From assembly GCA_963965975.1 (NCBI GenBank), contig OZ014412.1:5148501-5212500 (forward strand): 64,000 bases of DNA. Direction: 5' to 3'. This stretch comes from Xestospongia bergquistia. Its lineage: Eukaryota; Porifera; Demospongiae; Haplosclerida; Petrosiidae. Position numbers and translations under genes: made by a program. Below, in pieces: positions 1 through 51,576 of the stretch. The notes beneath the pieces were generated by a model. The model saw nothing but the letters and a program-made list of their open reading frames with translations. It searched no databases and was not told the DNA's origin. Each line of letters opens with the position of its first letter. The first letter of the stretch is position 1.

Positions 1-854
1 ATAGTTTTTAGTTCATTGTTAAAATGGATTGGTTGTTATTCATAGTTACTAGAGTTTCATGTATCCCTAATTAAAAATACATTGAAAAGTATTAACAACA
101 TTCATTGTTTTGATTAGTATTTACTATTGAACAGACTTAAAGGACTTCTCAAAAGGGCATGTATGTGTTTAGGGATGTCCTATAATTTCATAGTGTAATC
201 AATTAATGAGAGCTATTATACATAAGAACAGCAATGCTACCACAGATTTCATTATGACAGATTACATAGGTCCAGTACCCATGAAGATTATTTTGTCTAA
301 CTGATGTGACAGATGTTGAACAAAATCATTGTTTTGACAATTAGCTACCTGTACATATATCACTATCACTGTGTATGAACAGACATCATTAAAATAAGTA
401 GAATGATAAAAATCAATTATAAATGAGAATAATGATGTATGAATGTCAATGCCAAATTACCAAAATTTACTGAAACGAGACAGAGGAACGTATCTACATA
501 TGTAGTGGTTACAAAAAAGATAAATTGTGAATAGTTTGATTGTATGAAGCATTGGCAAATATATAAGTTTTGCTACATTTCTACCTATATTTCAGGTAGA
601 GGTATTTTCTGAAATACTAACTATGTAAGTCAGTAAATTGTTTAATGCTTAACTTATATAAACTAAAGTCCTCATGTGTAATCATTGTAATGTTATTTTT
701 AGTTTAAATAGTGTCCATGAAAAACATTCTTTTATTATTATCCTATATAAGATATTTAAGTACTATAGTGGTCTAAAATATTATTTTAGTTACTTTCAAC
801 TTTAATTCATTATTGGACAAGATATCAGTTTGAATATATTTTATTAATTTACAG
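1..854. other. Non-coding stretch, probably 5' intron of the first gene
   Basis: A+T-rich sequence with no open frame I can support. The first coding exon starts at 855 with a phase-1 acceptor (ttacag before 855), so at least one upstream exon must exist. In related genes of this window that exon is a short N-terminal exon ending in a split Gly/Glu codon. I find no such exon here, so it probably lies to the left of the window. Confidence 0.6.
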
Positions 855-3471
855 GTTCTCCATTTGATCATGAGGACCTCAAAAAGCTGATATCTAATCA
901 AAATCATTTGACAAAGATTCGACCAGTTTTGCTTACATTGACTGGTCTACCAGATTCTGGTAAGACAAAAGCAATTAAACATCTTCTAAATCACTATGTT
1001 GATGAAAGTCCATTGCCTCCAATGTCAAGGAAAAGCTACAGTCGCGATCATGAAGCAGAAGGAATCACATATTATGAACTTGTTGCTGCTGGTTTCCATC
1101 CTTTAAGAGATCTTACAATTGCTGAAGTCACTAATGAAACTAGTTGTGCATTTGGAATACTATCAGCTTTTCGCAAAAGTATTCGAGTTCACAAGAAAGT
1201 GCCACTGTTTCTTAAGGAGTCAGAGGTTGATTCTGAGCCATGTTTTGAAGACCCAGATTTAGAAGACCATCTTCAATACATATATAAATACCTTTGTCGA
1301 TATGAGCGAATGCCAAAAGGGCCTAATCTTAGTGACAATGAAAAGAAAATTTTTGCTGAGCCTCTTTGTAAGTTGCTTCCACGGGGCATTGCACTTATCA
1401 ACATTTGGGACGTGTCTCTAAATAAAACAGTTCTATATGTTTTGAGAGCTCTCTTTGGTCAATTTTACAACAGCCATACTTGGTTGTTTTTAGACATTGA
1501 ACGTGATTTTGATAATCTTGACCAACCTCCTCAAGTCACAGAAACAACAACCAGTGGTGCTCATAAAGATGATGCGGTTTTAATGAAGTGGCGTTCTCGT
1601 TTTCAGTATTTGCTTCGTTCTAGTAGAATGAGTGAAAGTAAATATGGTCCCAGAAAGGATGTGTGTACAATATTTGCTAAGCATAGCAGTTTGTCTAATG
1701 GTAGTCTAGCACAAAAAGTTGCAAAGATTGAAGAGAAAGCACAACAAGCTTCTAAGCATGTTGGTGTGGCTTCTCTTCTTGAATCTAAAATTGAGCCTAT
1801 CAACTTGACCGAAAATGCTATGGATGACTATAATGATTATTCTCATCGTCTATATCAGAAATTTCATCATGTAATTTGTGAAACACCCTACACAGATGTT
1901 CCTCTATCCTGGGTCTTTCTCCGCAGCATGTTTTACAGAGATCGTCATAAAATGTTTATACTGAAATCTGAGCTTAAACAAAAAGCAAGTGAATGTGGCA
2001 TTGATAACGAATCTTTTGCCAAATTTTGTCTTTTCTATTCATCTTTTGGTAGCATATTCGATTTCAGCTTACTCAATCCTGAGTGTGTACACATTATTGT
2101 CAGACCAATAGAATTTTTGAGATCTCTAGATAAGATATTGCACCCAAACAAAAGTATTTTTCTGGATTATCCTACCACACGTTTTGGTCTTTTTCCTGAA
2201 AAAGCTTACAAAAGTTTGTTTGAAGGGGACTGGCCAATATATATGGAAGCTTTAACATCAATTTGTTCCGCAACAAAAGTGTCTGGGGCATGCGTGAAAA
2301 TACCAGACCTTGATCGCAGTGATATGTTTTACTATATTCCTTTAAGTCGCAATGAATCACTTATAAAAGATGCTGATCTCACTTCTGTATACTTGATTAC
2401 AAGTGCTGATACACCTCATATTAATTCTCAAGTAGTGTTTACTAAATATATTTTGAAGTCAATGTCCGATGCTAAACTTGTGCCATGCTCTGAAATTAAC
2501 CAAACCATAATTGAAGTTCCTTCATCTAACACCACCATTTCTCTAGTTTGTCACGGGCCTGCTAATAAAATACACATTAGCCAACCAAATCCAGAGGTGT
2601 ATTCAATCGTTGTTCAAGCTTATCATAATGTTTTTGAAAGTTGCAAGACTGGAAGTCCCAAATGTAAGTTTGTCGTTGTGTGTACCAAAAGTGGAGCCCC
2701 TGATGTAAAGTCAATTCCATGTTGCCAGTACCACACTTTGCCTAATAATAAGCTCTGCAATGATTGTGAGAAAGCTGGACGTGTGAATGATCAATTAGAA
2801 GCATGGAATAAAGCCTTAAGCGAGGTCAGTATTACAATAATTTTTGCTTTATAATGATAACATTATTCACTTGCAGCATCCCATTCCTGAACGCTTTATA
2901 GCCAATGAAGGTATATGATGATATGCATGCACTACCAAAATATTATTATTTTATTTTTCATTATTGTAGAGTTGACAGCTTCAAATATTCATTGTATTGC
3001 TGAAGTGTTTTCAAGACATCCAGAGATCATCTTTGATTTTGCTGAAATTCTTGGCTTTCAAAATTACCAGAATAACTCTACATTTCAAGGTCTCTGTGGT
3101 GAAAAACTGATCATGCTAATGCTGTTAACTTGGGAACAACATATCATTAAAGCAACACAATCACAAATTGAGCCAAGACGAGAGCTGGCAAGAAAACTCC
3201 TTCAGCTAGGTGATAAAGTCTGTAAACAAGAGCTCAGTCTTGAACCAAGAGCTGAAAATAATGCTGATCAAAATCAACCCTTAAAGTATTCTGATTTTGA
3301 ACATCTTGCTAAAGAATTAGATCTTTATGGTAAATAGTTATATTGACATTAATTTAAAACTATTATTTTTATAATATAGCAACAAGCTATGAAAGAAATG
3401 TTGTACAAAGCAAAGAAGACAACGATACTTATACGTTGAAGATTGGTGACTTTACAAAGCCAATGAAGTAG
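855..3471 (+). CDS. Degenerate Roc-COR-like P-loop protein with Death-like domain (5' partial)
   Basis: Four exons are visible: 855-2824, 2877-2910, 2970-3329 and 3380-3471 (stop TAG 3469-3471). Exon 1 encodes about 656 residues: a Walker A motif GLPDSGKT shortly after the start, a conserved AEGITYYELVAAGFHPLRDL segment, INIWDVS, a hydrophobic strand with acidic end (WLFLDIERD), CTIFAKH, then a COR-like winged-helix region (VPLSWVFLRSMF; FGSIFDFSLLNPE). Aligned by eye with the Roc-COR exons further right, INIWDVSLNK sits where IYITDTGGQP sits and AKHS sits at TNAD, so this looks like a Roc-COR relative that kept Walker A but lost switch II and base recognition. The 11-residue exon (HPIPERFIANE) is a family linker. 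Exon 3 is a helical Death-like domain with IEPRRELARKLL. The protein ends here without ZU5. Its true start is outside the window. Function is inferred from domains only. Confidence 0.75.
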
Positions 3472-6536: not shown

Positions 6537-6810
6537 ATCTGAATAATTCATAACATATTTGATGCTTCTGTTTCTTGTGCCTGTTATGGTTCAGTCAGTG
6601 CCACAGTCTGTACAGGGATACCCAACATAATGTGCTTTTAATTTTAGTTGTACATAATATTATATTATATTTTTTATTTTATAATTTTTTACGTGAGCAC
6701 TACTTAGTTAGCAAGCATATTCGTATACAACTTGTAAACTATGCATGATATGTCTATTGTAGTTGTATCAGCAAAGGTGTGGCCTATGATACATCACTAG
6801 AGAAGAAATC

Positions 6811-6972
6811 ATGAATGAGGATTAATCTCCCACTGTAAATAAAAAATTGGAGATCTTGTATCAGGTGTTTTCAGTATTGCAGGAATTATTGGTGTTGTGA
6901 CTAAAGTTCCTGAACCAGGACTGAAACAAGAATTACCAAGACCTTTGAAAGAAACACTCATCCAAGTTCAAG
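6811..6972 (+). pseudogene. Dead first exon of the Roc family (left copy)
   Basis: Homologous to the intact first exon at 33725-33890, with the same Kozak-side context (agagaagaaatcatga) and the same phase-1 donor (caag|gtaagg). It has a TAA five codons after the ATG and a second stop soon after, while the downstream portion (SIAGIIGVV-like) remains readable in another frame. It marks the old 5' end of the Roc gene whose next exons have been replaced here by a guanine deaminase gene. Confidence 0.75.
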
Positions 6973-7444
6973 GTAAGGAACAATACTATAGTTCAGTTTA
7001 ACTAATTGTCACTTTTATTTGAATTTTGTCATAAAATCATTGTGTGCTAAAGATAATACACTTCATATTTAGACAATAGATTAGTCAGAGTTGAGCTTAC
7101 TTATCTAGCTATCTAGAAACCTATCTTATTTATTTATTTTTTAAAAATTATTTTCTCTCCGTTCTTTATTTAAGCAATACACAACAAAGATGTAATATAA
7201 TTATGGTATAGTTAAATTATATAGCATTATGATAGTGAGAGCAATGATTTTTGGATTGTATATACATATTCAGGTCAAGTATAGGCAAAGTCTATACTTG
7301 ATAACAGTACATGACTAGCTGATATAACTTGACTAGATATGCATGTGTTGAAAGCAATACATATCATTTTTAAGCTGATTCCATAAATCTACCATTTATT
7401 GTTGGGAAAATTAAGTTATGAGCTCATAAACTTGTTCAATTCTA

Positions 7445-7830
7445 TATACTTTAAAGTAAACTTATATCCTTCTGTGTTACAATTAAGGTATTCCAGATAT
7501 AGTAAACAGTGTCATTCCATAGTAGTGATATAGCTATATCCAAGTAAAGTGATATTGTCCTCCTCCATGTAAATAATGATAGAGCTACATGTATAATTAT
7601 AAAAGTACACTTATATCCATCTATGTTACAATTAAGTTATCCCATATATAGTGAACACTGTCATTTCATCTTAGTGATATAGGCTGTCTCAATGTAAACT
7701 TATATTATCCTCCTTCATGCAAATAATGCATGATATATGTACACTTATATTTCCTCCTCCATCTTTGTAAATAGTGATGTAACCATATCAAAGTAAACAT
7801 GTAACTTCTCCTCCATCTTCTACAAATTGG
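7445..7830. repeat. Imperfect tandem repeat array (three units)
   Basis: Recurring phrases such as acttatatccatctatgttacaatt, atatagtgaacactgtcatt, cctcctccat and tgtaaataatga come back every 120-170 bp. The array is part of the duplicated block and reappears at about 43545-43925. No coding sequence is visible between 6973 and 8700; the rest of that stretch is ordinary A+T-rich intron-like DNA. Confidence 0.5.
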
Positions 7831-8707
7831 ATCATTATTTTAATAGTGATAAATACATAACCTTTTATTATTGTTGTCTTGGTTGTTGTAACACAAAAGT
7901 GTTTATTTATGTTGTTATATTAATTTTACAATAGATAAAAAAGGAAATCATAGTTTTTTCATTATTGATGGTCAGTTTGGATGCTCCTTTAAAGGATGTG
8001 CTAGAAGCTAGTGTAGGCCAGCTAGTTTAGGCATACATATATGTTCTTATCTGTCAACAATTATTTCCATGAGAATAGATCCTAGTATTACTAATATTAT
8101 ACCAAACTGAAGGTATTTATCCAGCTTATAATATGCGCTTTAATTGGATATAGAGGTTTAAAAAGCCATATTTTAATAATGATGACATGTCCTACTTTCA
8201 AGAACTATCGATTCTTGTTATTAATAGAAGAAACATTTTGTTTACAGAAGGTCGGTATGTTTATTTAGTATCAGGTCAGTACATTCCAAGAAATACAAAC
8301 ATACAATAGAGAATTAATTTTAAAATATTTCCAGCTATACTCTTTACAACAAAGTGAAAATTAGAGAAAATGATTTTTATTATTACAAGACTTTGCACAC
8401 CTGTGCTTAATTAAAGTAGACTGTCATTTGAGAAAATACATCCAATCTTTAACCTAGCCTAGGAAAAGGACTAAATCGTAATCTATTGTTTTCTATTAAA
8501 AGCAGACTATACACTAGATCATTGATCAGAATATATCTATAGCGAAATTAGAGTTTAGTGCTAGTGCCTTAGCTATTATAAACTAATTTGTAAAATATGC
8601 ATTATTCATAATAAAATAATATTATTAACAGATCACGTGACTTTCAATTATATAATAGGTATTTGATATTCCTTGATTTCATGCAAGTCTGCATGATCTT
8701 AGGAAAG

Positions 8708-8717
8708 CTATATAAAG
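8708..8717 (+). promoter_or_regulatory. TATA-box-like element of guanine deaminase gene, left copy
   Basis: ctatataaag lies 52-62 bp before the ATG at 8770, a usual distance for a TATA box plus short leader. The same element is kept at 44778-44787 in the duplicate. Being just upstream of the deaminase start, it suggests that transcription begins at the deaminase and not at the dead first exon 1.9 kb away. Confidence 0.55.
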
Positions 8718-8769
8718 TGCATGGAGAACTGTAGTTAACAATTAACTTTGTAGATAATCGTACTGCATA

Positions 8770-10816
8770 ATGAAAGTCTTTCGTGGAAGACTGGTGCACT
8801 CATTAAAACCAGAGAAGATTGAGATACTAGAAGATGCAGTTATTGGATACTCAGAAAGAGATGGAAAGGTATATATACTACATAATATACTTTTAATTGG
8901 TGCTGTGACATACAGATCCACTTTGTTGAAAAATATCCAAGTAATATTGAAGAACTGATGCAGATGTATGGATTTTGTGACTCTGATGTACAGTTACTGA
9001 CAGAAGGGTATGCTAGAGTATTTAAAAGTATTATTATTGGATCTCATTTATAGGCAATTCCTTATGCCTGGTTTTGTTGATGCACATGTTCATGCTGCAC
9101 AGCATCAAATTAGTAGAGCAATGGAAAAAGGAGAAACATTGATTGAGTGGTTGAAACAATGTGTGTATCCATTAGAAGAAAAATTTTCAGACACTGCATT
9201 TGCTCATAACATTTACGATGAAATTGTGGTTAGTAATAAATGAAAACATACATACATACATATGAAACTATCATGTGTCATTTAGAGAAGAACCCTCCAC
9301 TGTGGTTCAACCACAGTCAATTACTTTGGAACAATTTATCTAGAATCTACTAAAGAGTTATGCCAAGTCATTGGTATTAGAATCTCTTTATTGTGAATAC
9401 AAATATTTTTTTTCTTATTATAGAAAAATATGGCCAGAGAGCATTAGTTGGTAAAGTTAATATGGACACTCGTTCAGGAAAGTATGTTGAGACAACAGAA
9501 GATTCAATAAAAGATACTCTAGAGTTTATTGATTTTGTTACACAAATGAAGGTATAAAATTAATCATAAATATTGTAATGTGCTATTGACAAGCCTCATT
9601 GATACTTATAGGGCTTACTAGTTCAACCAGTTATTACTCCTCGTTTCTTAGCATCATGTACTGAGTCATTGTTGACACGACTGGCAAAGATTGCTATTGA
9701 TAAAGGACTACGTATACAGGTATAAACAAACAGTTGTCTAATTTATATATTTGTGTCTAATTTGGTGACAGAGCTTCTTTTGTGAGGAAAAGAATGAAAT
9801 TGTATTTATTCTTTCTGAATGTCATACTGATGGACAAAGCTGTACTGAGATTATGGACAGTGTAGGACTGCTCAATGACAAAGTTAGTTTTATGCTATTG
9901 TAATGAATAAAGTCTAAGCTGCTTGTTTTAACTCTATATAAATGTAGGCATTTATGATTCATGCCAATATTCTAGAAGAAAATGAATTACAACTATTTAA
10001 AAAAAGAGATACTGGTGTTATTCATTGTCCAACAACTAATCTTAGGTACATTAATTAGAGCTACCTGGAATGTTTTAAGAGTTTTCAATTGACAGTCAAG
10101 GAATATATACCAACATTCGTGACAGATTATCTAGAGGTCTGAAAGTAGCACTTGGATCAGGTGTGTATAAATACATACTTACACTGCATGTACTTGCATA
10201 TAGTTTTTTATGTGTGGTTCTGATCTTTTGTCAAGATTACTGTTGGGGTGCTTCCTCTTCATCAATTCTAGACATAATGAGGGATGCAAAAAATGTATCA
10301 ATGATAGTGAAAAAACAAGTGGGAGATCATGAGTATGAGCCTCTTACTATCGATGAACTATTTTACATGGCCACTCTGGGAGGTGCCAAAGGTACATATA
10401 TAAAGGTATACTAGCTATAATGCTTTAACCTCCATTACCTAGTTTTGTCAATGGAAGATCAGATTGGAAACTTTGAGGTAAGTAGAAATTGATGCACAAA
10501 CTCTTTGTCATTGATTCATTATATCAGGTCAATAAACAATTTGATGCACTTCTTGTGGATATGAATAATACGAATTTACCATTGATGTCTGAGGTATCAT
10601 ATTATTATTATAGTCAATCATTCAATTACTTATTATCTTGCAATTAAATAGAATATTGTGGAAGATTTCCTACAATATGGTAAGTACACAGTAAGACATT
10701 TATTATGCAATTGTTGCAATAAAATCACAGGAACTGATAAAAACATTGTGAATGTGTTTGTTGCTGGAAAGCAAGTTGTGCCATATGAAGTAGAGAAAAC
10801 ATTGGAAGGTGAATAA
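8770..10816 (+). CDS. GDA: Guanine deaminase, left copy (14 exons)
   Basis: Amidohydrolase that would convert guanine to xanthine plus ammonia in purine salvage. I resolve 14 exons in consistent phase: 8770-8868, 8916-9007, 9054-9228, 9286-9373, 9424-9551, 9612-9719, 9772-9882, 9948-10045, 10096-10160, 10236-10391, 10443-10477, 10528-10593, 10652-10679 and 10731 to TAA 10814-10816. About 443 residues, close to the ~454 of human GDA, and colinear with it: PGFVDAHVHA (metal HxH), YFGTIY, VGKVNMD, ITPRF, FMIHA, VIHCPTTN, ALGSD, LATLGG, IGNFE, GKQVVP. The fifth metal ligand is missing: the human IQSHISE motif reads IQSFFCE, so activity is doubtful. The last exon can end at its TAA (an AATAAA overlaps it at 10812-10817) or be spliced from a phase-1 donor at 10808|10809 into the Roc exon at 10963. 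A near-identical copy lies at 44840. Confidence 0.85.
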
Positions 10817-10858
10817 ACTGCTTAGTAATTAATTGGTAGACTATAAAATAATGCTAAA

Positions 10859-10891
10859 AATGTGTGTGTGTGTTTGTGTGTGTGTGTGTTC
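10859..10891. repeat. (TG)n microsatellite
   Basis: Near-perfect TG run with one tttg interruption, between the deaminase end and the Roc exon. The duplicate locus has a shorter run at about 46939-46951, so its length is variable. Confidence 0.85.
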
Positions 10892-10962
10892 ATGTGCGTA
10901 TTATAAAACTTCCTGATATATTGTGCATATAATAATTTTGTTTACCTTCTAAATACTGACAG

Positions 10963-13900
10963 ATAATGAAATTACAAGAGATATCTATGAGAAATACTCA
11001 CAAGAGGATGGTGTTATTCCATTCAAAGCTGTTAAATGGATCATTGTTGGACCACCTCAAGTTGGTAAAACTACAACTAAAATGCGTCTTCTTAATCAGA
11101 TTCATAACATAAGAAGTGAAGGTGGTGATGTAAGGCCTGATAGCACAGGCATAGAAAAGCCACTAGAGATTATGAGTGCCACCATGATCCAACATAAAGG
11201 CAATCAGAATAAAAGTAGTTTATATTGGAATGCTTTGGATGAGTCTAAATTGGGTAGGGCTTTGATGTGTTACATCAATTCACACTCATCGTCGATAGAT
11301 TACTCATCAACCTACATTTCTGATAGTGGTATAGGACTTAGTTCTTGCTCTTTTGAAGACATTCAGCATAGAAAGGATCTTGGGGATCACCAAGAATCCC
11401 AAAGCAGTGTTATTTCAACATCTACAGAAAGTTCACTCGATCTGTCTAGAAGAAATTCTCTTATGTCTGAGTCAACTAATAATGAGGCCATGGTTCTTGA
11501 ATATGACTTGGAGAAAGAATTACCACGTATCGAAGAAGAAGATGAATCTCAGATCAATGCCAACTCTGTAAATATTGAAACTGAATATAAGCTAAAGAGA
11601 GGGCCTTTTACACTGAGAGAGAAAATAGATATGCCAAAACAAGTTACTTTGGTATTTAATTATATAAAGAGGCAATGCAGTGATGTGGAATTTCTTCAAC
11701 TACTTGAAGAAATAAAAGGTTCGATAGCAGATAGTGTTTCCATCTACATTACAGATACCGGTGGTCAACCTGAGTTTCTTTGTTTACTTCCAGTGATTCT
11801 TTCTAGACCAGCAATGTATTTTGTATTCTTTAGCTTAGCTCAACCATTAGATCAAGAGTATACAGTAAGATATACCAAAGACCGTGAAACTTGTGATCTC
11901 TATATGTCAAATCATACCGTCAAAGATATTTTAAGTCAATTGCTATCTTCTCTTCATATTCACACAGAGGATGACAAGTTTTCTAAAGTAAAGTCAACAG
12001 CATTATTATTTGGTACTAATGCTGATCATCCATATAAGGATGTCGATAAAATAAATGATGAATTAAAAGAAACTCTTCCTTTGGATTCAAATTATGTCAC
12101 CAGTGTTGAGTCAAAATTTACAACTGCTTTTATTCCCGTAAATAACATGAGTGGCACAGAAAATGAAATCATTAAGATTAGACAATATCTTGAAAAGCTT
12201 GTCAATGATATTGAGCCTGTTAGTATACCTGTTCGTTGGCTTATATTTCATCTTCTCCTTCGAAAAAGATTTAAAGAAGCCAAAGTTTGTTCTTTGAAGG
12301 ATTGTGAACAACTCGCTAAGGAATGTTCAATTGCTAAAGACGATATTAAACCAGTTCTTACCTACATTCATCAAAACTTGGGAACTATCCTTTATTATGA
12401 AAAGGTTGATGAGAATGTCATTGTATGTGTTCCTGAAGTTCTTCTTAAAATTATATCACAAGTTGTTGCTTCGACCATGCTGAACAATGATAAACATGCA
12501 GGTCCCAGTTGTCATGGTGAAATTGGTATTAATGTTGTTACTACTCTTATGAGTGATGCCAAAGAAATATATGGATATTTAGATTCACAATATGTCATTA
12601 AGGTCATGAAGCATTTCCAATTGATAACAACACTAACAGTCAAAGATGCAATTTCTATTGATGATAATAGTGTACCATTATTTCTCCCTTGTCTTCTTCG
12701 TCCAGACGGTAATAATAATCCTGTTCCTACTGACCAAGTAACATTAGTCATCTTATTCGGGAAAGATGAAATGCCACCACATTTGTTTCAGAATTTGATT
12801 GTTGCTTTAAGAGCTCAAAGTATATCAGGGGAAATAGGAGAAAAAGAGTCACAATTAATGTGGACTCTCTCACATGACCATCCTCGCTATAGTGATCATA
12901 TTTACTTTAAAGTTTTCAAATGTTATGATGAGTGGTTTGTTGAGCTTCAATTAAGGAAGTTTGAGACATCAACATGCATAGAAGTTCGATGTGAACCTAC
13001 TACAATAAATGTGTCCAGTCAAAGTATACATCATAAAGTGTACCAAAATATCAAGACAATATTGTATCTAGTTTGTGATATGTTTCCACATACTCGTGAT
13101 CTCAAGCCAATGTATGGAGCATACTGTTGTGATGGCAGTAGTTTCTCTGAATATAATGAAAAGATATCTGGTCTTGTGTATAACAACTGTGACTGTGATA
13201 AAAGTGAAGCAATGTTTTGGTTTAAACCAACTGAAATAGTTAGTTCATTGATACATGATTTGTTTTACAATATTGTTATTCTTTCATGTAGAAAGATTCC
13301 ACAGTTGAGATTAAGACTGAGACCAAAGATGTTGAGAGTCAAATTGGATCCAAGATCATAGATGCTGCAGGTCAGATTAAACAGGATCATGGACGTATGT
13401 AATAATAGTCATATAATGTATATTGAGATTAAAGTATCACTATATAATACATTTTAAGAATAGCTGATTACATTCTAAGTACAATTAGTACTATTCTCTA
13501 ATTTTGTCCAGAACAACAAGTGGTTGAGAAAAGTACTTCAATTGTGCAGACAAAATCAATGGAGCAGTCATTAGCTAAAGTGGACAAGTCTGTTCAATTC
13601 AACTATCTTATTCCATCAAATGGTACTAATAGCCATCATAAATCAATTGTATTTGATCGACTTTCAGATACTCTTCATGGTGTGTGCATAGGAGGTGAGA
13701 AATTGTTCCTCATCCAAGGAGACTCTCCTCAGTTTCTTGAGTGGGAAGAGTATGGATTAAAAATTACTGTCTATCGAGACACTTTATCTCCAACAGAGAC
13801 ATCTGAAGTAGCTCTGTCAGCACTGGTTGGTGGACAGTTTCAATTTCCAGAGAGCAGTGTACCCATCAGTGCTATATACGCCATATCTGTCTCTAAACCA

Positions 13901-15642
13901 CTTCTTCAACCAGTCAAGTTAGAGATACAACACTGTGCCGATCTAGTCACTAAAGACCACACTAAATATTTGAGTTTTGCTACAGCTTTTTATAAGCAAG
14001 ATTTGCCCCCCTACAAATTTCAGCTAACAGAAGGAGGACATTTTTATCCTGGCAATCAATATGGCAGCATTTTTCTTTCAAAATTCTCTTTTTTAGTTAT
14101 CCTTGAAATATGCCCTTGTTTTGACACGCCAGAGGAAGCAAATTCTGAGTCAGAAGAAGGAACTAACCAGAATGGATCATCTGTAGTAGAACCCAGTCTT
14201 GAGGAGGTTCTAGACAAAACTATATCCTTACCACACTCTTTAACAACTGATGATATGGAACCTTGTCAGCAACTTAGTTCTTTGATCAATAGTACTGATC
14301 AATCTTTGAGAGAAGGTACACTAAACTCAATAAATTGTTATAATGAATGCATCCTTCTAATTGTTCTTCAGTTAATAGATCACCTCATCCTAATCGCAAG
14401 TATGTAGCTCAGGTGGTATATGAAACAAAACATCATAATAGAGAATGGTTAATGAGAATTATGGTAGCAAAATGTCTCAATTGTCTACTGAAGGTAAAAA
14501 TGATTATCAAAACATAATGTGTATACTTTTCTTCATTGATAGTATATTGAAACTTCTCTTCCACCTAATATCGAAAAAGATGTTGATATGTTATTTACCT
14601 TTCAAGAAAATGATGGTTCCAATGAATTAATCCTTGGTGAAATAGAAAAGCATCCATTGAATGGATGGAGTATAAATCCTCATAGATATCCTACACTGGT
14701 AGGTATATACTATTTCTTATATGAAATCTTCTCATAATAATAATATAGATTGATCAAAGTGATGTGGATATGTATGGCTCTCAAGATCCTCCATACTTTC
14801 CTTCTATACTGATCACAGTCTCTGTTGAAAATGGACCTAATACTGCAACTAGACTGAATTACTGTTTATCAGTGAAAGGAATCAAACCTGATAACACAAA
14901 GATAGTTATTGTACGATCTTGTAACAATGCTGGTAAGTCCTAACTAAGTAACAGTATTATTGAGGAATTTTTCAGGAGGAGGAGTATCAAGAATTAATCC
15001 AACTATTGAAACTGTTCATGTTGCAAGAAATCCAGGTATGTTTATATTTAAAAGAAGGTAGTATATTATGTGGTAGACTGTCATTCTATATGTTGGTTGT
15101 TAAATCTTATGTATTGACTTTGTAAATAAATTCTTATTTATATTATGGCGATAAAACTTTATACAATTGAATAATGGTACAAATGATCTGTCTATATATT
15201 TTAATTAAGAACCTCCTTATGTATAATATGCATTTACTTGTCACATTTACGTTTTTAATTATACTTTTGTGTATGTATTGATTTCCATGCACTATTTCAA
15301 TTTTATTATATATTGTAATTTTCTTTTAAAGCGCCTGATCCATCAGAGATTTTCCGTACTCATATTGCTGACATTTGTGATGCTTTTGCAACTAATCTTG
15401 ATCGAGTCACTAATAGTCTCTTTGCAAAGAAATTAATAGTACATGAAGTGTATCAATCTACTTTAATGACAGAAGGTGTCTCAAACTATCGTAAAGCCGG
15501 CAGATTAGTTAATCAATTATACAGTCATGTAAAAGCTCACAATGAACCAAAGCAGTATCTAACAGCAATTTGTGATGTGATGTTGAAACAAGATGATCAG
15601 AAACTAAAGGACATTGCTAACCAAATACAAATTAATCTATAA
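10963..15642 (+). CDS. Roc-COR GTPase with ZU5-UPA and CARD-like death fold
   Basis: Exons: 10963-13238, 13292-13394, 13512-14315, 14372-14493, 14543-14698, 14749-14932, 14976-15035 and 15332-15642 (stop TAA). The first exon holds a Roc GTPase: G1 GPPQVGKT (about 11049), DSTGIEKP, a low-complexity Ser/Glu insert, G3 DTGGQ (11754-11768), G4 FGTNAD (about 12012), then COR (VPVRWLIFHLLLRKRF; QNLGTILYY; NVIVCVPEVLLKII) and a C-terminal module. Next come a KTETKDVESQ linker, ZU5 with an N-terminal extension (LFLIQGD..WEEYGLKI, SAIYAISVSKP), an acidic tail, three UPA-like exons (HPLNGWSINP) and a terminal helical CARD-like domain (IADICDAFAT..). The Roc exon opens at a phase-1 acceptor, and its first in-frame ATG (11082) lies after Walker A, so an upstream exon is required. 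The nearest candidate is the last guanine deaminase exon. An AATAAA at 15641-15646 overlaps the stop. Likely a cytoplasmic GTP-switched scaffold; the role is inferred. Confidence 0.8.
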
Positions 15643-44839: not shown

Positions 44840-46903
44840 ATGAAAGTCTTTCGTGGAAGACTGGTGCACTCATTAAAGCCAGAGAAGATTGAGATACTAG
44901 AAGATGCAGTTATTGGATACTCAGAAAGAGATGGAAAGGTATATATACTACATAATATACTCTTGATTGGTGCTGTGACATACAGATCCACTTTGTTGAA
45001 AAAGATGCAAGTAATATTGAACAACTGATGCAGATGTATGGATTTTGTGACTCTGATGTACAGTTACTGGGAAAAGGGTACACTAGACTATTTAAAAGTA
45101 TTATTATTGGGTCTCATTTATAGGCAATTCCTTATGCCTGGTTTTGTTGATGCACATGTTCATGCTGCACAGCATCAAATTAGTAGAGCAATGGAAAAAG
45201 GAGAAACATTGATTGAGTGGTTGAAACGATGTGTGTATCCATTAGAAGAAAAATTTTCAGACACTGCATTTGCTCATAACATTTACGATGAAATTGTGGT
45301 TAGTAATTAATGAACATATACATACATACATGTGAAACTATAATATATCATTTAGAGAAGAACCCTCTGCTGTGGTTCAACCACAGTCAATTACTTTGGA
45401 ACAATTTATCTAGAATCTACTAAAGAGTTATGCCGAGTCATTGGTATTAGAATCTCTTTATTGTGAATACAAATATTTTTTTTCTTATTATAGAAAAATA
45501 TGGCCAGAGAGCATTAGTTGGTAAAGTTAATATGGACACTCGCTCAGGAAAGTATGTTGAGACAACAGAAGATTCAATAAAAGATACTCTAGAGTTTATT
45601 GATTTTGTTTCACAAATGAAGGTATAAAATTAATCATAAATATTGTAATATGCTATTGACAAGCCTCATTAATACTTATAGGGCTTACTAGTTCAACCAG
45701 TTATTACTCCTCGTTTCTTAGCATCATGTACTGAGTCATTGTTGACACAACTGGCAAAGATTGCTATTGATAAAGGACTACGTATACAGGTATAAACAAA
45801 CAGTTGTCTAATTTATATATTTGTGTCTAATTTGGTGACAGAGCTTCTTTTGTGAGGAAAAGAATGAAATTGTATTTATTCTTTCTGAATGTCATACTGA
45901 TGGACAAAGCTGTACTGAGATTATGGACAGAGTAGGACTGCTCAATGACAAAGTTAGTTTTATGCTATTATTAATGAATAAAGTCTAAGCTGCTTGTTTT
46001 AACTCTATATAAATGTAGGCATTTATGATTCATGCCAATATTCTAGAAGAAAATGAATTACAACTATTTAAAAAAAGAGATACTGGTGTTATTCATTGTC
46101 CAACAACTAATCTTAGGTACATTAATTAGAGCTACCTGGAATGTTTTAAGAGTTTTCAATTGACAGTCAAGGAATATATACCAACATTCGTGACAGATTA
46201 TCTAGAGGTCTGAAAGTAGCACTTGGATCAGGTGTGTATAAATACATACTTACACAGCATGTACTTGCATACAGTTTTTTTATGTGTGTTTCTGATTTTT
46301 TGTCAAGATTACTGTTGGGGTGCTTCCTCTTCATCAATTCTAGACATAATGAGGGATGCAAAAAATGTATCAATGATTGTGAAAAAACAACATGTACAAG
46401 CAGGAGACCATGAGTATGAGCCTCTTACTATTGATGAACTATTTTACATGGCCACTCTGGGAGGTGCCAAAGGTACATATATAAAGATGTACTAGCTATA
46501 ATGCTTTAACATCCATAACCTAGTTTTATCAATGGAAGATCAGATTGGAAACTTTGAGGTAAGTAGAAATTGATGCACATACTCTTTGTCATTGATTCAC
46601 TATACCAGGTCAATAAACAATTTGATGCACTTCTTGTGGATATGAATAATACGAATTTACCATTGATGTCTGAGGTATCATTTTATTATAGTCAATCATT
46701 CAATAACTTATTATCTTACAATTAAATAGAATATTGTGGAAGATTTCCTACAATTTGGTAAGTACACAGTATGACATTTATTATGCAATTGTTGCAATAA
46801 AATCACAGGAACTGATAAAAACATTGTGAACGTGTTTGTTGCTGGAAAGCAAGTTGTGCCATATGAAGTAGAGAAAACATTGGAAGGTGAACAAACTGCT
46901 TAA
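44840..46903 (+). CDS. GDA: Guanine deaminase, right copy
   Basis: Near-identical to the copy at 8770, with the same 14-exon structure and open frames. Differences include exon 2 (HFVEKDASNIEQL; LLGKG), Q to R before CVYPLEE, and exon 10, where KKQ is followed by HVQAG (an inserted stretch, close to the length of the mammalian loop). The HxH, FMIHA, HCPTTN and ALGSD motifs are present, and the His of IQSHISE is again replaced (IQSFFCE at about 45838-45856). The last exon reads through LEG to EQTA and stops at 46901-46903, unlike the left copy, and the AATAAA seen there is changed to AACAAA. The alternative is splicing from the phase-1 donor at 46886|46887 to the Roc exon at 47026, which would fuse the deaminase to the next protein. 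Confidence 0.85.
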
Positions 46904-47025
46904 TAATTAATTGGTAGACTATAAAATAATGCTAAAAATGTGTGTGTGTGTGTTCATGTGCGTATTATAGACTTCCTGATATATTGTACATATAATAATT
47001 TTGTTTACCTTCTAAATACTGACAG

Positions 47026-50000
47026 ATAATGAAATTACAAGAGATATCTATGAGAAGTACTCACAAGAGGATGGTGTTATTCCATTCAAAGCTGTTAAAT
47101 GGATCATTATAGGACCACCTCAAGTTGGTAAAACTACCACTAAAATGCGTCTTCTTAAAGAAATTCATAACATTGAAACTGAAATCAAAGGTGGTAATAT
47201 GAGACCTGATAGCACTTGTATAGAAAAACCTGTAGAGGTTATTTGCACAACAATGATTTCTGCCAATGAGACTGAAAATAATCTGTACTGGAAAGCCTTG
47301 AATGAATCCCAGTTAGATCAAGCCCTAATGTGCTACATCAATTCACAACCTACATCCACTCTAGAAAGTTTAACTTTTCAGAGTCACAAGCAACCTCATA
47401 TTTCTGGTTGCATAGATACAATGCCAACAGAACTAGCTGAAATAGATGCTAATAATGTCCAAACCAACAAAGACAATGCTACGGAAGAGCTTTTAATATT
47501 GCAATCTCGCAAGCGCTCCCATGATTTTGAGTCCTCATATGCAAAACTTAAAAAACAAGCATGGACTTTTGAAAATGATGATAATAATTTCTCCCAAAAC
47601 TACTTGCCATACAAAGAGAATAATAAAGAACAATTACCAATATTTCAGTCTCGTAAATGTTCTCACTCACCTGATGCAATAGCAGATACAATGCTTAAGA
47701 AGCAGGCGACTTTTTTTGATTCTGAAAATGATAATAATGAGTTTCTCCCAAACATTAAAGAATTGCTAGTGTACAGTACCACAGATACTGAAAATCAGCC
47801 AAAAGAGTCTGACAATATGGAAATTGAGCATTCCACATTATTGTCAAAGAAAAAAGAGAGGCGTGCATCAACTATAGTAATGAACTTTGTAAAAAAACAA
47901 TGCAATGATAAAGACTTTTTTAAACTTATAAAAGAGATGAAAGATTCAGTATCTAGTAGTACAGCCATCTACATTACAGATACTGGTGGTCAGCCTGAGT
48001 TTCTTCGCTTACTTCCATTAATTCTATCTAAGCCAGCATTTTATTTTGTTTTCTTTAGCTTAGCTCAACAACTAGATCAAACATACGCTGTAAAGTTCAC
48101 CAAAGAGGGTGAGACTCAAACACTCTATCAATCGACCCAAACTGTCAAAGATATTTTGAGTCAACTTTTATTTTCTCTCCATATTCCCACATCACGTGAT
48201 GATGAGTATTCTGAAGTCAAATCAAGAGCTTTGTTATTTGGTACTAATGCTGATCAACCGTATAAGGATGTAGATGAAATAAGTGATGAGTTAAAAGAAA
48301 TCCTTCCTTCAAATTCAAATTATGTCACCAGTGTTGAGTCAAAATTTAAAACCGTTTTTATTCCCGTAAATAACATGAGTGGCACAGAAGATGAAATCAT
48401 TACTATTAGACAATACCTTGAAGAGCTTGTCAACGATCTTGAGCCTGTTAATATACCTGTTCGTTGGCTTATATTTCATCTTCTACTTCGCAAAAGGTTT
48501 AAAGAAGCCAAAGTCTGTTCTTTAAAGGCTTGTGAACAACTTGCTAAGGAATGCTTTATTGCTGAGGATGACATCCAAAAAATTCTAGTTTACATTCATG
48601 AAAATATGGGAACAATTCTTTATTACAGAGACATTGACAGAAATGTCATTGTATGTGTTCCTGATGTCCTTTTAAAGATCATATCAGAACTTGTTGTTGT
48701 TTCTGTCATTCAAAGTACTAGTACAGAAGACAAAGTTACAGATGTAAGTACTCATGGTGAAATTCATGAAGAGTTTCTCAATTCTCTCATGGATAACAAA
48801 GAAGTGTATGGACAATTAGATGCACAATATGTCATTAAAGTCATGAGGCATTTTCAATTAATCACCACTTTAACAGAGAAGGATAGCATTAATAATGCTG
48901 TTCATGATAGTGCACCACTATTTGCTCCTTCTCTACTTCGTCCTGATTATAAAGGCAATCAGACTCCTACTGATCATGATGTTCATACAACATTACTTGT
49001 CTCATTCGGAAATGACAAAATGCCACCTCATCTGTTTCAGAATTTGATAGTTGCCCTCAGAGCTCAGAGTATGGAGATAGAGAAAAAGGATTCTCAATTA
49101 ATGTGGAGTCTCTCTCATGATCATTCTCGTTATAGTGATCATATTTATTTCAAGGTTTCCTATTGTAAGAAAGAGGGACTTGTAGAGCTACAGCTTAAGA
49201 AGCTTGAGTTAGCATATTATATAGAAGTTCGATATGAATGTTTATCTCATCAAAGTATACAGTATTTTGTGCTTCAAAATGTCAAGAAAGTGTTGCATTT
49301 AGTTTGTGATACATTTCCTCACACTCGTCACATCAAGCCAGTTTATGGAGCCTACTGCTGGTCAAATGATAGTCTTCACTTCTCAGAATATAATGAAGAA
49401 AAGTCAACTTTTTTGTGCCACAATTGTGTATGGGATAAAAGTGAAGTAATGATTTGGTTTCAACCTTCTGAAGAGGTTAGTTTAATTATGTATTACATAT
49501 TGCATTAGCAGTTTTTGTACTTTGATCTAGATGGATGAAGCGACATCAAAAGATGCTGAAGTTCAGTTTGAGCCTGAGAGCAAAGATGTTGAAGTTCAGT
49601 ATGATCACTTTGAAGAGGTTGGCATCATTATTACACAATGAAGTAATTATTCTTTTTGTTCTTAATTTGATACAGATGGATGAAGTAATAACCAAAGATG
49701 CTGAAGTTCAATTTGACTATTTTTGTCCTATAATTGGTAGGTAATTATAATATCTATATCTAATAATTACACTGACATGTTTGTTCTACCTTGCAGATAA
49801 TTTTAAAAACGTCTACATAGCTGGACAAAAGCTCTTTGTTATTCAAGGTGACCACTTTCAATCTTTTCACTGGGATGAATGTGGTCTGAGACTGTCTTGT
49901 CCTAAAGGAGCTTTATCATCATTAGATGAGAGATGTGAGGTTGCTATAGTAGCACTAGCTGGTGGTCAGTTTAAACTTCCAGAGAGAACTAAACTAGTTA

Positions 50001-51576
50001 GTACTGTTTATGGCATCTCTGTTAGCAAGAATCTCCTCAAACCATTAAATCTTAAGTTACAACATTGTGTAGCTCTAGAAACAAAAGATCAAGCTGAGTA
50101 TCTCAAATTTGTCAGAGCTCCTCTTGTAGGATGTGATCCAAATACTAAATTTACAATATTGGAAGGAGGAGAATTTCGTCCAGGTAGTTGGTATGGTTCA
50201 ATAACTCGTTATCACTTTTGCAAAGTTGGTGTGGTGCAAGCAGAAAATTCAGTGGAGCAATGTACAGGTATTACAATTCCTATAGTCTTATATATACACT
50301 AAGCACATATTACAACAGGTACTACTTATGTGAATGAATATGCTGATCATGATCCTCTCAGTGTAGCTACTAATGATGTCAATGTAACTGATCATGATCC
50401 GCTCAATGTAGCTACTAACGATGTCAATGTAGCTGATCATGATCCACTCAATGTAGCTACTAATGATGTCAATTCAGCTGATCACAATCCTCTCAATGTA
50501 GCTACTGATAGTGTTAATGATGTTAACACAGCTGCTAATCGTGTTGCATATTTTTGCAAAATATATTATGAAAGTATCTCTCCTTTGCAGTGGTCAGTAA
50601 AATTAAGTATTGTGAGACGTCTCAATGCTCTTGAAGAGGTATTGCTTACTACTGGTAATCTCATTACTAAATATCTATTGTTTTTAGTATATGAAAAGAA
50701 AACAACCTAAAGCTGATCCATCTCATTATTTTGACTTTGTACTACCTTCAGGAAATTTTTTTAAATTTGATCTTAATACTAATACTCAGAATCCCCCTCA
50801 AGGGTGGAGTATATATCAGTTAACAGAAAATCCAGAGGTCAGTCAGTGATTATAAAAGATATTATTGTTTATATTTATTTTTGTAGTTTGAATATGACTT
50901 CATTGATAAGTTTATAAGTGATGAATTGCCAGAACCACCATCTTGTTTAGTGAAAGTATATGCCAGACACAGTCCAGACACAGAAGAAATTTTTCACTAT
51001 CCAGTTCCATTGGCTGGTGTGACTAAGCCAAAGAAGATTACTATTCACTTATCACTGAGAAGTAATCCAATGACAAGTAATTATATCCTGATTATTATTT
51101 GCATAAAAGTTAATGATTGGATAATGTGTGTGACATGATAAAAATAACGTCACACTTAAAGTAAAAGTATGCATTAATATAATGTATATAGTACAATAAG
51201 AAATATATTTTATTTAAGATATTTCTTTACTATAGATTCTATGACATCAATATTGACTAGTACTACTTTGAACCCTGTAGTGGTTAAGAGAGCTTTAGTT
51301 CAATGTACTGTTAATATTGTTGAATCAAGTATAGATCCTTTTGCTCTAGCCAGGAGGCTCTACTCAAACGAAATCATTGCTGAGAATTTTTATAAGAGAG
51401 TGAGAGACAGTGAAACTAGAGACACAATGGAGGATCGTCTTGAGAAGATTCTTGATCATTTAAAAGATCTCGCTAAAATTGATGCCAGTATTTTGATAGC
51501 TTTTCTGGATATTTTAAGTGATTTAGGTCGAGATGACTTGACTGACACAATCAAGAAAAAATATTTAGGCAAGTAG
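47026..51576 (+). CDS. Roc-COR GTPase with ZU5-UPA and CARD-like death fold (second)
   Basis: Exons: 47026-49475, 49531-49617, 49676-49736, 49797-50267, 50319-50638, 50688-50837, 50887-51076 and 51236-51576. Roc: GPPQVGKT (about 47113), DSTCIEKP, a long polar insert with repeated LxxLQSRKRSH motifs, DTGGQ (about 47979), LFGTNAD, then COR (VPVRWLIFHLLLRKRF; ENMGTILYY; NVIVCVPDVLLKII) and the C-terminal module. Two linker exons (MDEATSKDAEVQFEPESKD; MDEVITKDAEVQF). ZU5 (LFVIQGD, WDECGLRLSCPKGAL, YGISVSKNLLKP) ends YHFCKVG. Next is an exon with four 15-residue repeats followed by WSVKLSIVRRLNALEE, then UPA (FDFVLPSG, QGWSIYQL, FHYPVPLAG) and a CARD-like death fold (SIDPFALARRLYS..). The Roc exon requires an upstream phase-1 exon; only the deaminase provides one nearby. 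The final codons read LGK before TAG, and an AATAAA lies near 51800. Confidence 0.8.
50339..50518 (+). repeat. 45-bp coding minisatellite (four units)
   Basis: Unit gctgatcatgatccKctc plus aatgtagctactaaYgatgtcaatgta, encoding ADHDPLNVATNDVNV, repeated four times with few changes inside the exon between ZU5 and UPA. The corresponding exon in the gene at 53990 (60724-60921) has a single decayed unit (DHNLLDIATTDVNV), so copy number changes between paralogues. Units are in frame. Confidence 0.9.

Follow-up and report, generated by a model that had tools for sequence, protein, structure and literature searches.

A probable fusion of a guanine deaminase-like domain to a Roc-COR GTPase in a tandem array of the sponge Xestospongia bergquistia

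The 64,000-nucleotide window analysed here (C2:5148501-5212500) comes from the 146-Mb, 21-contig genome of the sponge Xestospongia bergquistia and holds part of a tandem array of genes for Roc-COR (Roco-like) GTPases. At two loci in the window, called left and right, exons of a guanine deaminase homologue lie directly upstream of a Roc exon, and a search for neighbouring copies within 144 kb found two more deaminase-Roc loci beyond the window. The deaminase and Roc exons are probably parts of one fused gene with a pseudo-deaminase at its N-terminus, which is the reading that we consider best.

Deaminase and Roc exons in a tandem array

The left locus contains the following features.

8711-8716 (+): TATAAA, a candidate promoter of the whole unit, 59 nucleotides 5' of the deaminase ATG; the right and third copies share a TATAAA
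8770-10808 (+): putative pseudo-guanine deaminase, 14 exons, open for 442 residues to the donor, all introns GT-AG, strong Pfam amidohydrolase match (PF01979, 6.1e-42)
8770-8868, 8916-9007, 9054-9228, 9286-9373, 9424-9551, 9612-9719, 9772-9882 (+): deaminase exons 1 to 7
9948-10045, 10096-10160, 10236-10391, 10443-10477, 10528-10593, 10652-10679, 10731-10808 (+): deaminase exons 8 to 14
9772-9789 (+): start of exon 7, peptide SFFCEE, with Phe at the zinc-ligand His of the SHxxE motif
10809-10962 (+): putative phase-1 junction intron of 154 nucleotides, between the last deaminase exon and the Roc exon
10812-10817 (+): AATAAA, overlapping an alternative stop (TAA 10814-10816), within the putative junction intron
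10963-13238 (+): Roc-COR exon, open for 758 residues, with Walker A GPPQVGKTT, DTGGQ and TNAD
13292-15642 (+): Roco-like remainder in seven exons, a ZU5-like region and a C-terminal domain with weak or absent Pfam matches, ending at TAA 15640-15642

Spliced across the putative junction intron, the left model is open for 1780 residues, from the deaminase ATG at 8770 to the TAA at 15640-15642. As the first-pass annotation of this DNA had it, the last deaminase exon ends on a phase-1 GT at 10808 (GTGAAT follows), the Roc exon at 10963 begins with a phase-1 acceptor (preceded by TACTGACAG), and the first in-frame Met of the Roc exon follows Walker A (residues 40 and 29 of the exon peptide, respectively). 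The right Roc exon likewise has its first Met after Walker A, as read from the right gene model. The gap of 146 nucleotides given in that annotation is the distance from the deaminase stop to the Roc exon, the putative intron itself being 154 nucleotides long. The in-frame join was also borne out, except for the Gly written into it (EKTLEG-DNEI): GAT is the codon that spans the join, and the protein reads ..VEKTLE-D-NEITRDIYEKY... The deaminase-Roc splice that we infer is an unproven prediction from genomic sequence.

Splice signals were scored against 40 reference introns of the same genes, taken from our own exon calls, and the scoring is a consistency test because the reference donors come from those calls. 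The left donor is the sole phase-1 GT among the nine GTs in 10731-10830 and by far the best-scoring of them. Donors fall at the 45th percentile in the left copy, the 32nd in the right and third, and the 55th in the fourth (exon 14), while acceptors stand at the 80th in the left, right and third copies and at the top for both acceptors of the fourth. Scores of this size are usual for genuine donors and acceptors, and the phase-1 deaminase-Roc arrangement recurs at 4/4 deaminase-Roc loci. The right locus has the same plan.

44840-46886 (+): putative pseudo-guanine deaminase, same 14 exons, open for 445 residues to the donor, with the end GEQTA* if unspliced
46887-47025 (+): putative junction intron, 139 nucleotides, same phase-1 donor
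47026-51576 (+): Roco-like part, 8 exons; the fused model has 1801 residues and a single stop at its end

Beyond the window on the same contig, the deaminase exons of a third copy run to C2:5233286 with Roc directly 3' of them, and by homology the donor and acceptor are the same. Both parts of this copy are frameshifted (exon 2 is 8 nucleotides shorter, and the Roc exon carries a frameshift); the frameshifts are read as they stand, and assembly error is possible. Its intron 1 holds an insertion of about 2.5 kb (C2:5228871-5231351) that is absent from the left and right copies. The fourth and oldest copy, also beyond the window, consists of open deaminase exons 7-14 with the phase-1 exon-14 donor, an extra exon of 39 nucleotides that is phase 1 on both sides, and Roc; exons 1-6 gave no significant match in about 9 kb upstream. 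A fifth Roc copy has no deaminase and a broken Roc frame, and its upstream DNA is 88-95% alike that of the fourth over the longest matches. Both this copy and the fourth are preceded by a tandem repeat of about 99 bp, as judged from BLAST offsets (C2:5252269-5254082, C2:5214309-5215763).

Within the 144 kb, the family also includes Roc copies headed by a segment called module 1, three of them with long open Roc exons and one fragmentary. Of the five Roc copies free of module 1, four have deaminase exons in its place, the slot that the first-pass annotation had assigned to the deaminase. Another contig carries two ordinary guanine deaminase genes that are 94-97% identical and separated by about 40 kb (C13:2439759-2442485 on the plus strand and about 2479889-2477120 on the minus strand). 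The first is a complete model of 450 residues on the same 14-exon plan, with its TGA within exon 14, and a search with the Roco parts gave no match in 20 kb around either C13 copy.

The deaminase part: zinc site and selection

The linked deaminase has near full-length homology to guanine deaminases and the exon plan of the genome's ordinary gene. The left copy is about 51% identical to the ordinary C13 deaminase, which is 63% identical to P0005 of Amphimedon queenslandica; the best matches include this protein and P0009 of Halichondria panicea, both from sponges. With animal guanine deaminase (GDA; structure 2uz9, which we take to be the human enzyme) the homology runs over nearly the whole length (E 6.8e-88), and both proteins have GKQVVP near the C-terminus. 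The linked copy differs in having Phe for the zinc-ligand His and a C-terminus extended to the splice donor.

The alignment sets QSHISENRDE of 2uz9 against QSFFCEEKNE of the linked copy. The His of SHxxE, presumably the third zinc ligand (judging by this alignment and by what is known of the family), is replaced by Phe in the left, right and fourth copies and by Tyr in the third, a change that the first-pass annotation had not noted; it is His in the C13 gene and in 120/120 homologues, these being the best 120 listed of 360 matches, with the unusually long proteins P0001-P0003 left out. The complete metal site (HxH, the SHxxE His and Asp) is found in none of the linked copies, and the fourth has in addition lost the Asp (to Gly) and the second catalytic His (to Asn), with exons 7-14 still open. 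In the available part of a study that modelled deaminases and related hydrolases, three His, one Asp and water coordinate the zinc, and the chemistry is carried out by Glu, a further His and Asp (PMC13054789). The linked deaminase is probably non-catalytic, a pseudo-enzyme. An active, guanine-handling deaminase, which was the simplest reading and the one taken in the first-pass annotation, is weakened by the loss of the His; a non-catalytic role in sensing, as bait or as scaffold would fit better because all four linked deaminases lack the zinc-ligand His.

In a tree of deaminase exons 7-14 (18 rows), the four Roc-linked deaminases form one clade (100/100) on a long stem, separate from the genome's own C13 deaminase. 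The left and fourth deaminases, compared over 205 codons, differ by a synonymous divergence (dS) of 0.79 and a nonsynonymous divergence (dN) of 0.28; their ratio, omega, is 0.35 (bootstrap 0.23-0.54), which shows purifying selection. Between the left and right copies, exons differ at 23 of 1327 positions (1304 identical) and introns at 31 of 709 (678 identical; p=0.0007). Between the left and third copies, exon 1 differs at 6 of 99 positions (93 identical) and upstream DNA at 112 of 639 (527 identical; p=0.003). In a neutral, substitution-only simulation of exons 7-14, the sequence was stop-free in 1/2000 runs at d=0.2 and in 0/2000 at d=0.4. The simplest history would be a single loss of the His before the left and fourth copies split, with the frame then kept open over a long time.

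The GTPase part and probable copying across the junction

The first-pass annotation had named the GTPase part Roc-COR-ZU5-CARD. The COR element of that name is backed by a COR-A match directly after Roc in the 57652 paralogue (36.1 bits, cut-off 35.3; the left copy at 24.9 and the right at 29.8 are below the cut-off), and the Roc element by the P-loop, DTGGQ and TNAD of the left Roc exon, which we take to be Roc GTPase motifs and which are invariant across three window paralogues. In those window proteins that were scanned, Pfam matches to Roc and ZU5 stay below threshold, and neither CARD nor Death has usable Pfam support.

The Roc-COR part is very divergent, with three protein matches at 1e-10 among 7614 candidates of allowed length. 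One of these, P0124, is a predicted protein of 1478 residues with Death and two Roc-COR-like regions; it is 28% identical in the Roc-COR part, differs in having no amidohydrolase domain, and suggests that a tandem Roc-COR arrangement is wider than this genome. When a profile of the Roc exon was run against the PDB, no match was significant, a chain that is presumably a bacterial Roco reaching only E 0.19, and structure models were too poor to use (predicted local distance difference test, pLDDT, of 32 for the Roc exon from 3 sequences and 34 for module 1). When the profiles of module 1 and Roc-COR were compared, the probability was 30% over 99 columns (E 0.00056), and module 1 could conceivably be a degenerate Roc-COR. 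Read by eye, a module-1 exon and a so-called Death exon at 848-3470 of the window seem to end at their own stop near 3469, so they could form a gene of their own, or a truncated one, in front of Roco debris.

The left and right loci share one long tract.

6636-11090 (+): duplicated or converted tract of 4.4 kb, matching 42723 to about 47153, running over the deaminase-Roc junction into the Roc exon, where it stops

Without gaps, identity is 95.6-98.3% in the parts of 7001-11090 and 78% over 11091-11173; by BLAST it is 94.7% overall and 92% over 6636-7098, and later Roc matches are at 76-77%. Since the tract spans the deaminase and the junction and reaches into the Roc exon, recombination probably copied the deaminase and the start of Roc together, through what was probably ectopic copying or gene conversion over the junction.

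One gene or two, and a possible role

That a deaminase has become the N-terminal domain of a GTPase, as the first-pass annotation proposed, is well supported by the sequence, because the arrangement is present at four loci, the linked deaminases have a common origin, the joins are phase 1, selection has kept the exons intact and the search for another first exon turned up none that is live. The copied tract that spans the junction, and the frameshifts in both parts of the third copy, also speak for one gene. Several observations weigh against a fused gene with a pseudo-deaminase. The right and third donors score under the reference-donor median, and in every copy a stop follows the donor if it is read through: after two codons in the left (GE*, TAA 10814-10816), as GEQTA* in the right and third, and 33 codons on in the fourth. 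The 456-nucleotide intron of the fourth copy contains one AATAAA and one ATTAAA, far inside, and this copy has lost exons 1-6, with no start codon identified. The left and right deaminases retain HxH, Gln, Arg, Phe, Glu, the second catalytic His and Asp, which makes residual metal binding or activity possible. The left-right omega of 0.50 (0.20-1.27) is compatible with neutrality, and the omegas of the left and of the right against the third have likewise wide intervals. A relic exon upstream, described below, is open in the left copy and could be used there as an internal exon. Finally, no fused protein was found among the 5.8 billion predicted proteins that our search covered, a set from which the linked deaminase of this genome is itself missing (best identity 47%).

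The rival that survives best, though it is unlikely, is that there are two genes, a deaminase ending at the stop past the donor and, around or beside it, a Roc-COR gene with its first exon elsewhere. It draws on the stop 2-5 codons past the donor in three copies, on the AATAAA that overlaps the left stop, on the other family members headed by module 1, and on an upstream exon.

6843-6971 (+): relic of another first exon, with a phase-1 donor; the left copy is open but startless and closely preceded by an in-frame stop, and the right copy contains an in-frame TAA

The first-pass annotation had called this exon dead, which is true of the right copy. The left one is open but startless, and on both counts the exon was rejected as the start of Roc. 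The AATAAA is present over the deaminase stop, as had been noted, but the short transcript proposed from it depends on one left-only substitution: among the linked copies the AATAAA and the immediate stop are unique to the left, and the right and third read CAA there, with no AATAAA or ATTAAA before their Roc acceptors. As proof of separate genes the AATAAA was rejected, being not conserved and having no counterpart in an ordinary deaminase; the polyadenylation-signal test is itself weak, because the ordinary C13 deaminase has neither AATAAA nor ATTAAA in the 400 nucleotides past its stop. The fourth copy, moreover, reads on for its 33 codons, all four copies have preserved the phase-1 donor over a dS of about 0.8, and a ligand lost yet a frame kept is unexpected for a stand-alone enzyme.

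Considerably less probable is a fused gene whose deaminase is active or re-specialised, with an altered metal geometry and another purine or a pterin in place of guanine. The residues kept in the left and right copies would suit it, but the lost His is present in every one of the 120 best homologues, the zinc site in the available part of the modelling paper is built from three His and one Asp (PMC13054789), and exons 7-14 of the fourth copy stayed open although the second His and the Asp are gone from it. Just as improbable are deaminase duplicates caught as decaying debris in a recombining array, with no functional protein, since the frameshifted third copy, the truncated fourth, the broken fifth Roc without a deaminase and the long stem branch are outweighed by two full 14-exon copies open from ATG to donor and a left-fourth omega well below 1.

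For the fused gene with a pseudo-deaminase N-terminus, the following course can be proposed. A duplicate of the ordinary 14-exon guanine deaminase gene would have landed in the N-terminal slot of the tandem Roc-COR family, where the phase-1 donor in its last exon could join the family's phase-1 Roc acceptor, and the zinc site would then have lost one of its three His ligands to leave a non-catalytic input domain. A purine-like ligand might bind to this domain, or the domain might be bait for an agent directed at purine enzymes; in either case it could pass a signal on to the C-terminal domain and the GTPase switch. A more specific and rather doubtful version, drawn by analogy, is an integrated bait or purine gauge: the GTPase, and with it cell death or an immune response, would be set off by whatever binds or targets the guanine deaminase of the host or by the purine pool itself, convergently with plant decoys, the N-terminal slot being filled by module 1 or the pseudo-enzyme and the arrangement spread by recombination.

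The likeness to plant nucleotide-binding leucine-rich repeat receptors with integrated decoys, in which a duplicated host protein domain is built into the receptor (PMC9528084, in its available part on plant receptors with integrated domains), is one of analogy; the proteins and the kingdom are different, and in the sponge an immune role and a target would be putative. Prokaryotic AP-GTPase/COR conflict systems also combine a GTPase-COR core with an enzyme domain (GT4) as effector, according to the available part of PMC8195603, and differ in the enzyme and in being prokaryotic; the same part of that paper reports a large expansion of TRADD-N proteins in Amphimedon, most with Death-like N-terminal domains. 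DAPK1-like death-domain Roco proteins, so far as the available sources describe them, resemble the sponge family in the Roc motifs, in COR-A (seen in paralogues) and, in DAPK1, in having an enzyme, a kinase, before Roc-COR. The sponge gene differs in having no kinase or leucine-rich repeat match and a C-terminal domain without a usable Pfam match, and its family in having module 1 in relatives, a ZU5-like part and a deaminase in the module-1 place.

The first-pass annotation knew of no partnership between GDA and ROCO proteins, and neither a fused protein nor a joint paper turned up in the searches made. None of the deaminase matches of suitable length (three, one insect and two fungal, among 4542 candidates) has a Roc or COR domain. 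The literature search returned no paper naming both 'guanine deaminase' and 'Roco', or both plus 'sponge', or 'guanine deaminase' together with 'pseudoenzyme', and the word 'deaminase' is absent from the main text of two Roco reviews in the portions available.

Should the splice prove real, a partner domain that these searches did not turn up would be added to the Roco GTPases. A pseudo-enzyme kept by selection within a signalling GTPase would offer a way into how purine state, or an attack on purine enzymes, could feed a molecular switch in an early-branching animal. The array would also be a domain capture caught live, with an ordinary parent-type gene, two intact captured copies, one broken copy and one older truncated copy in a single genome.

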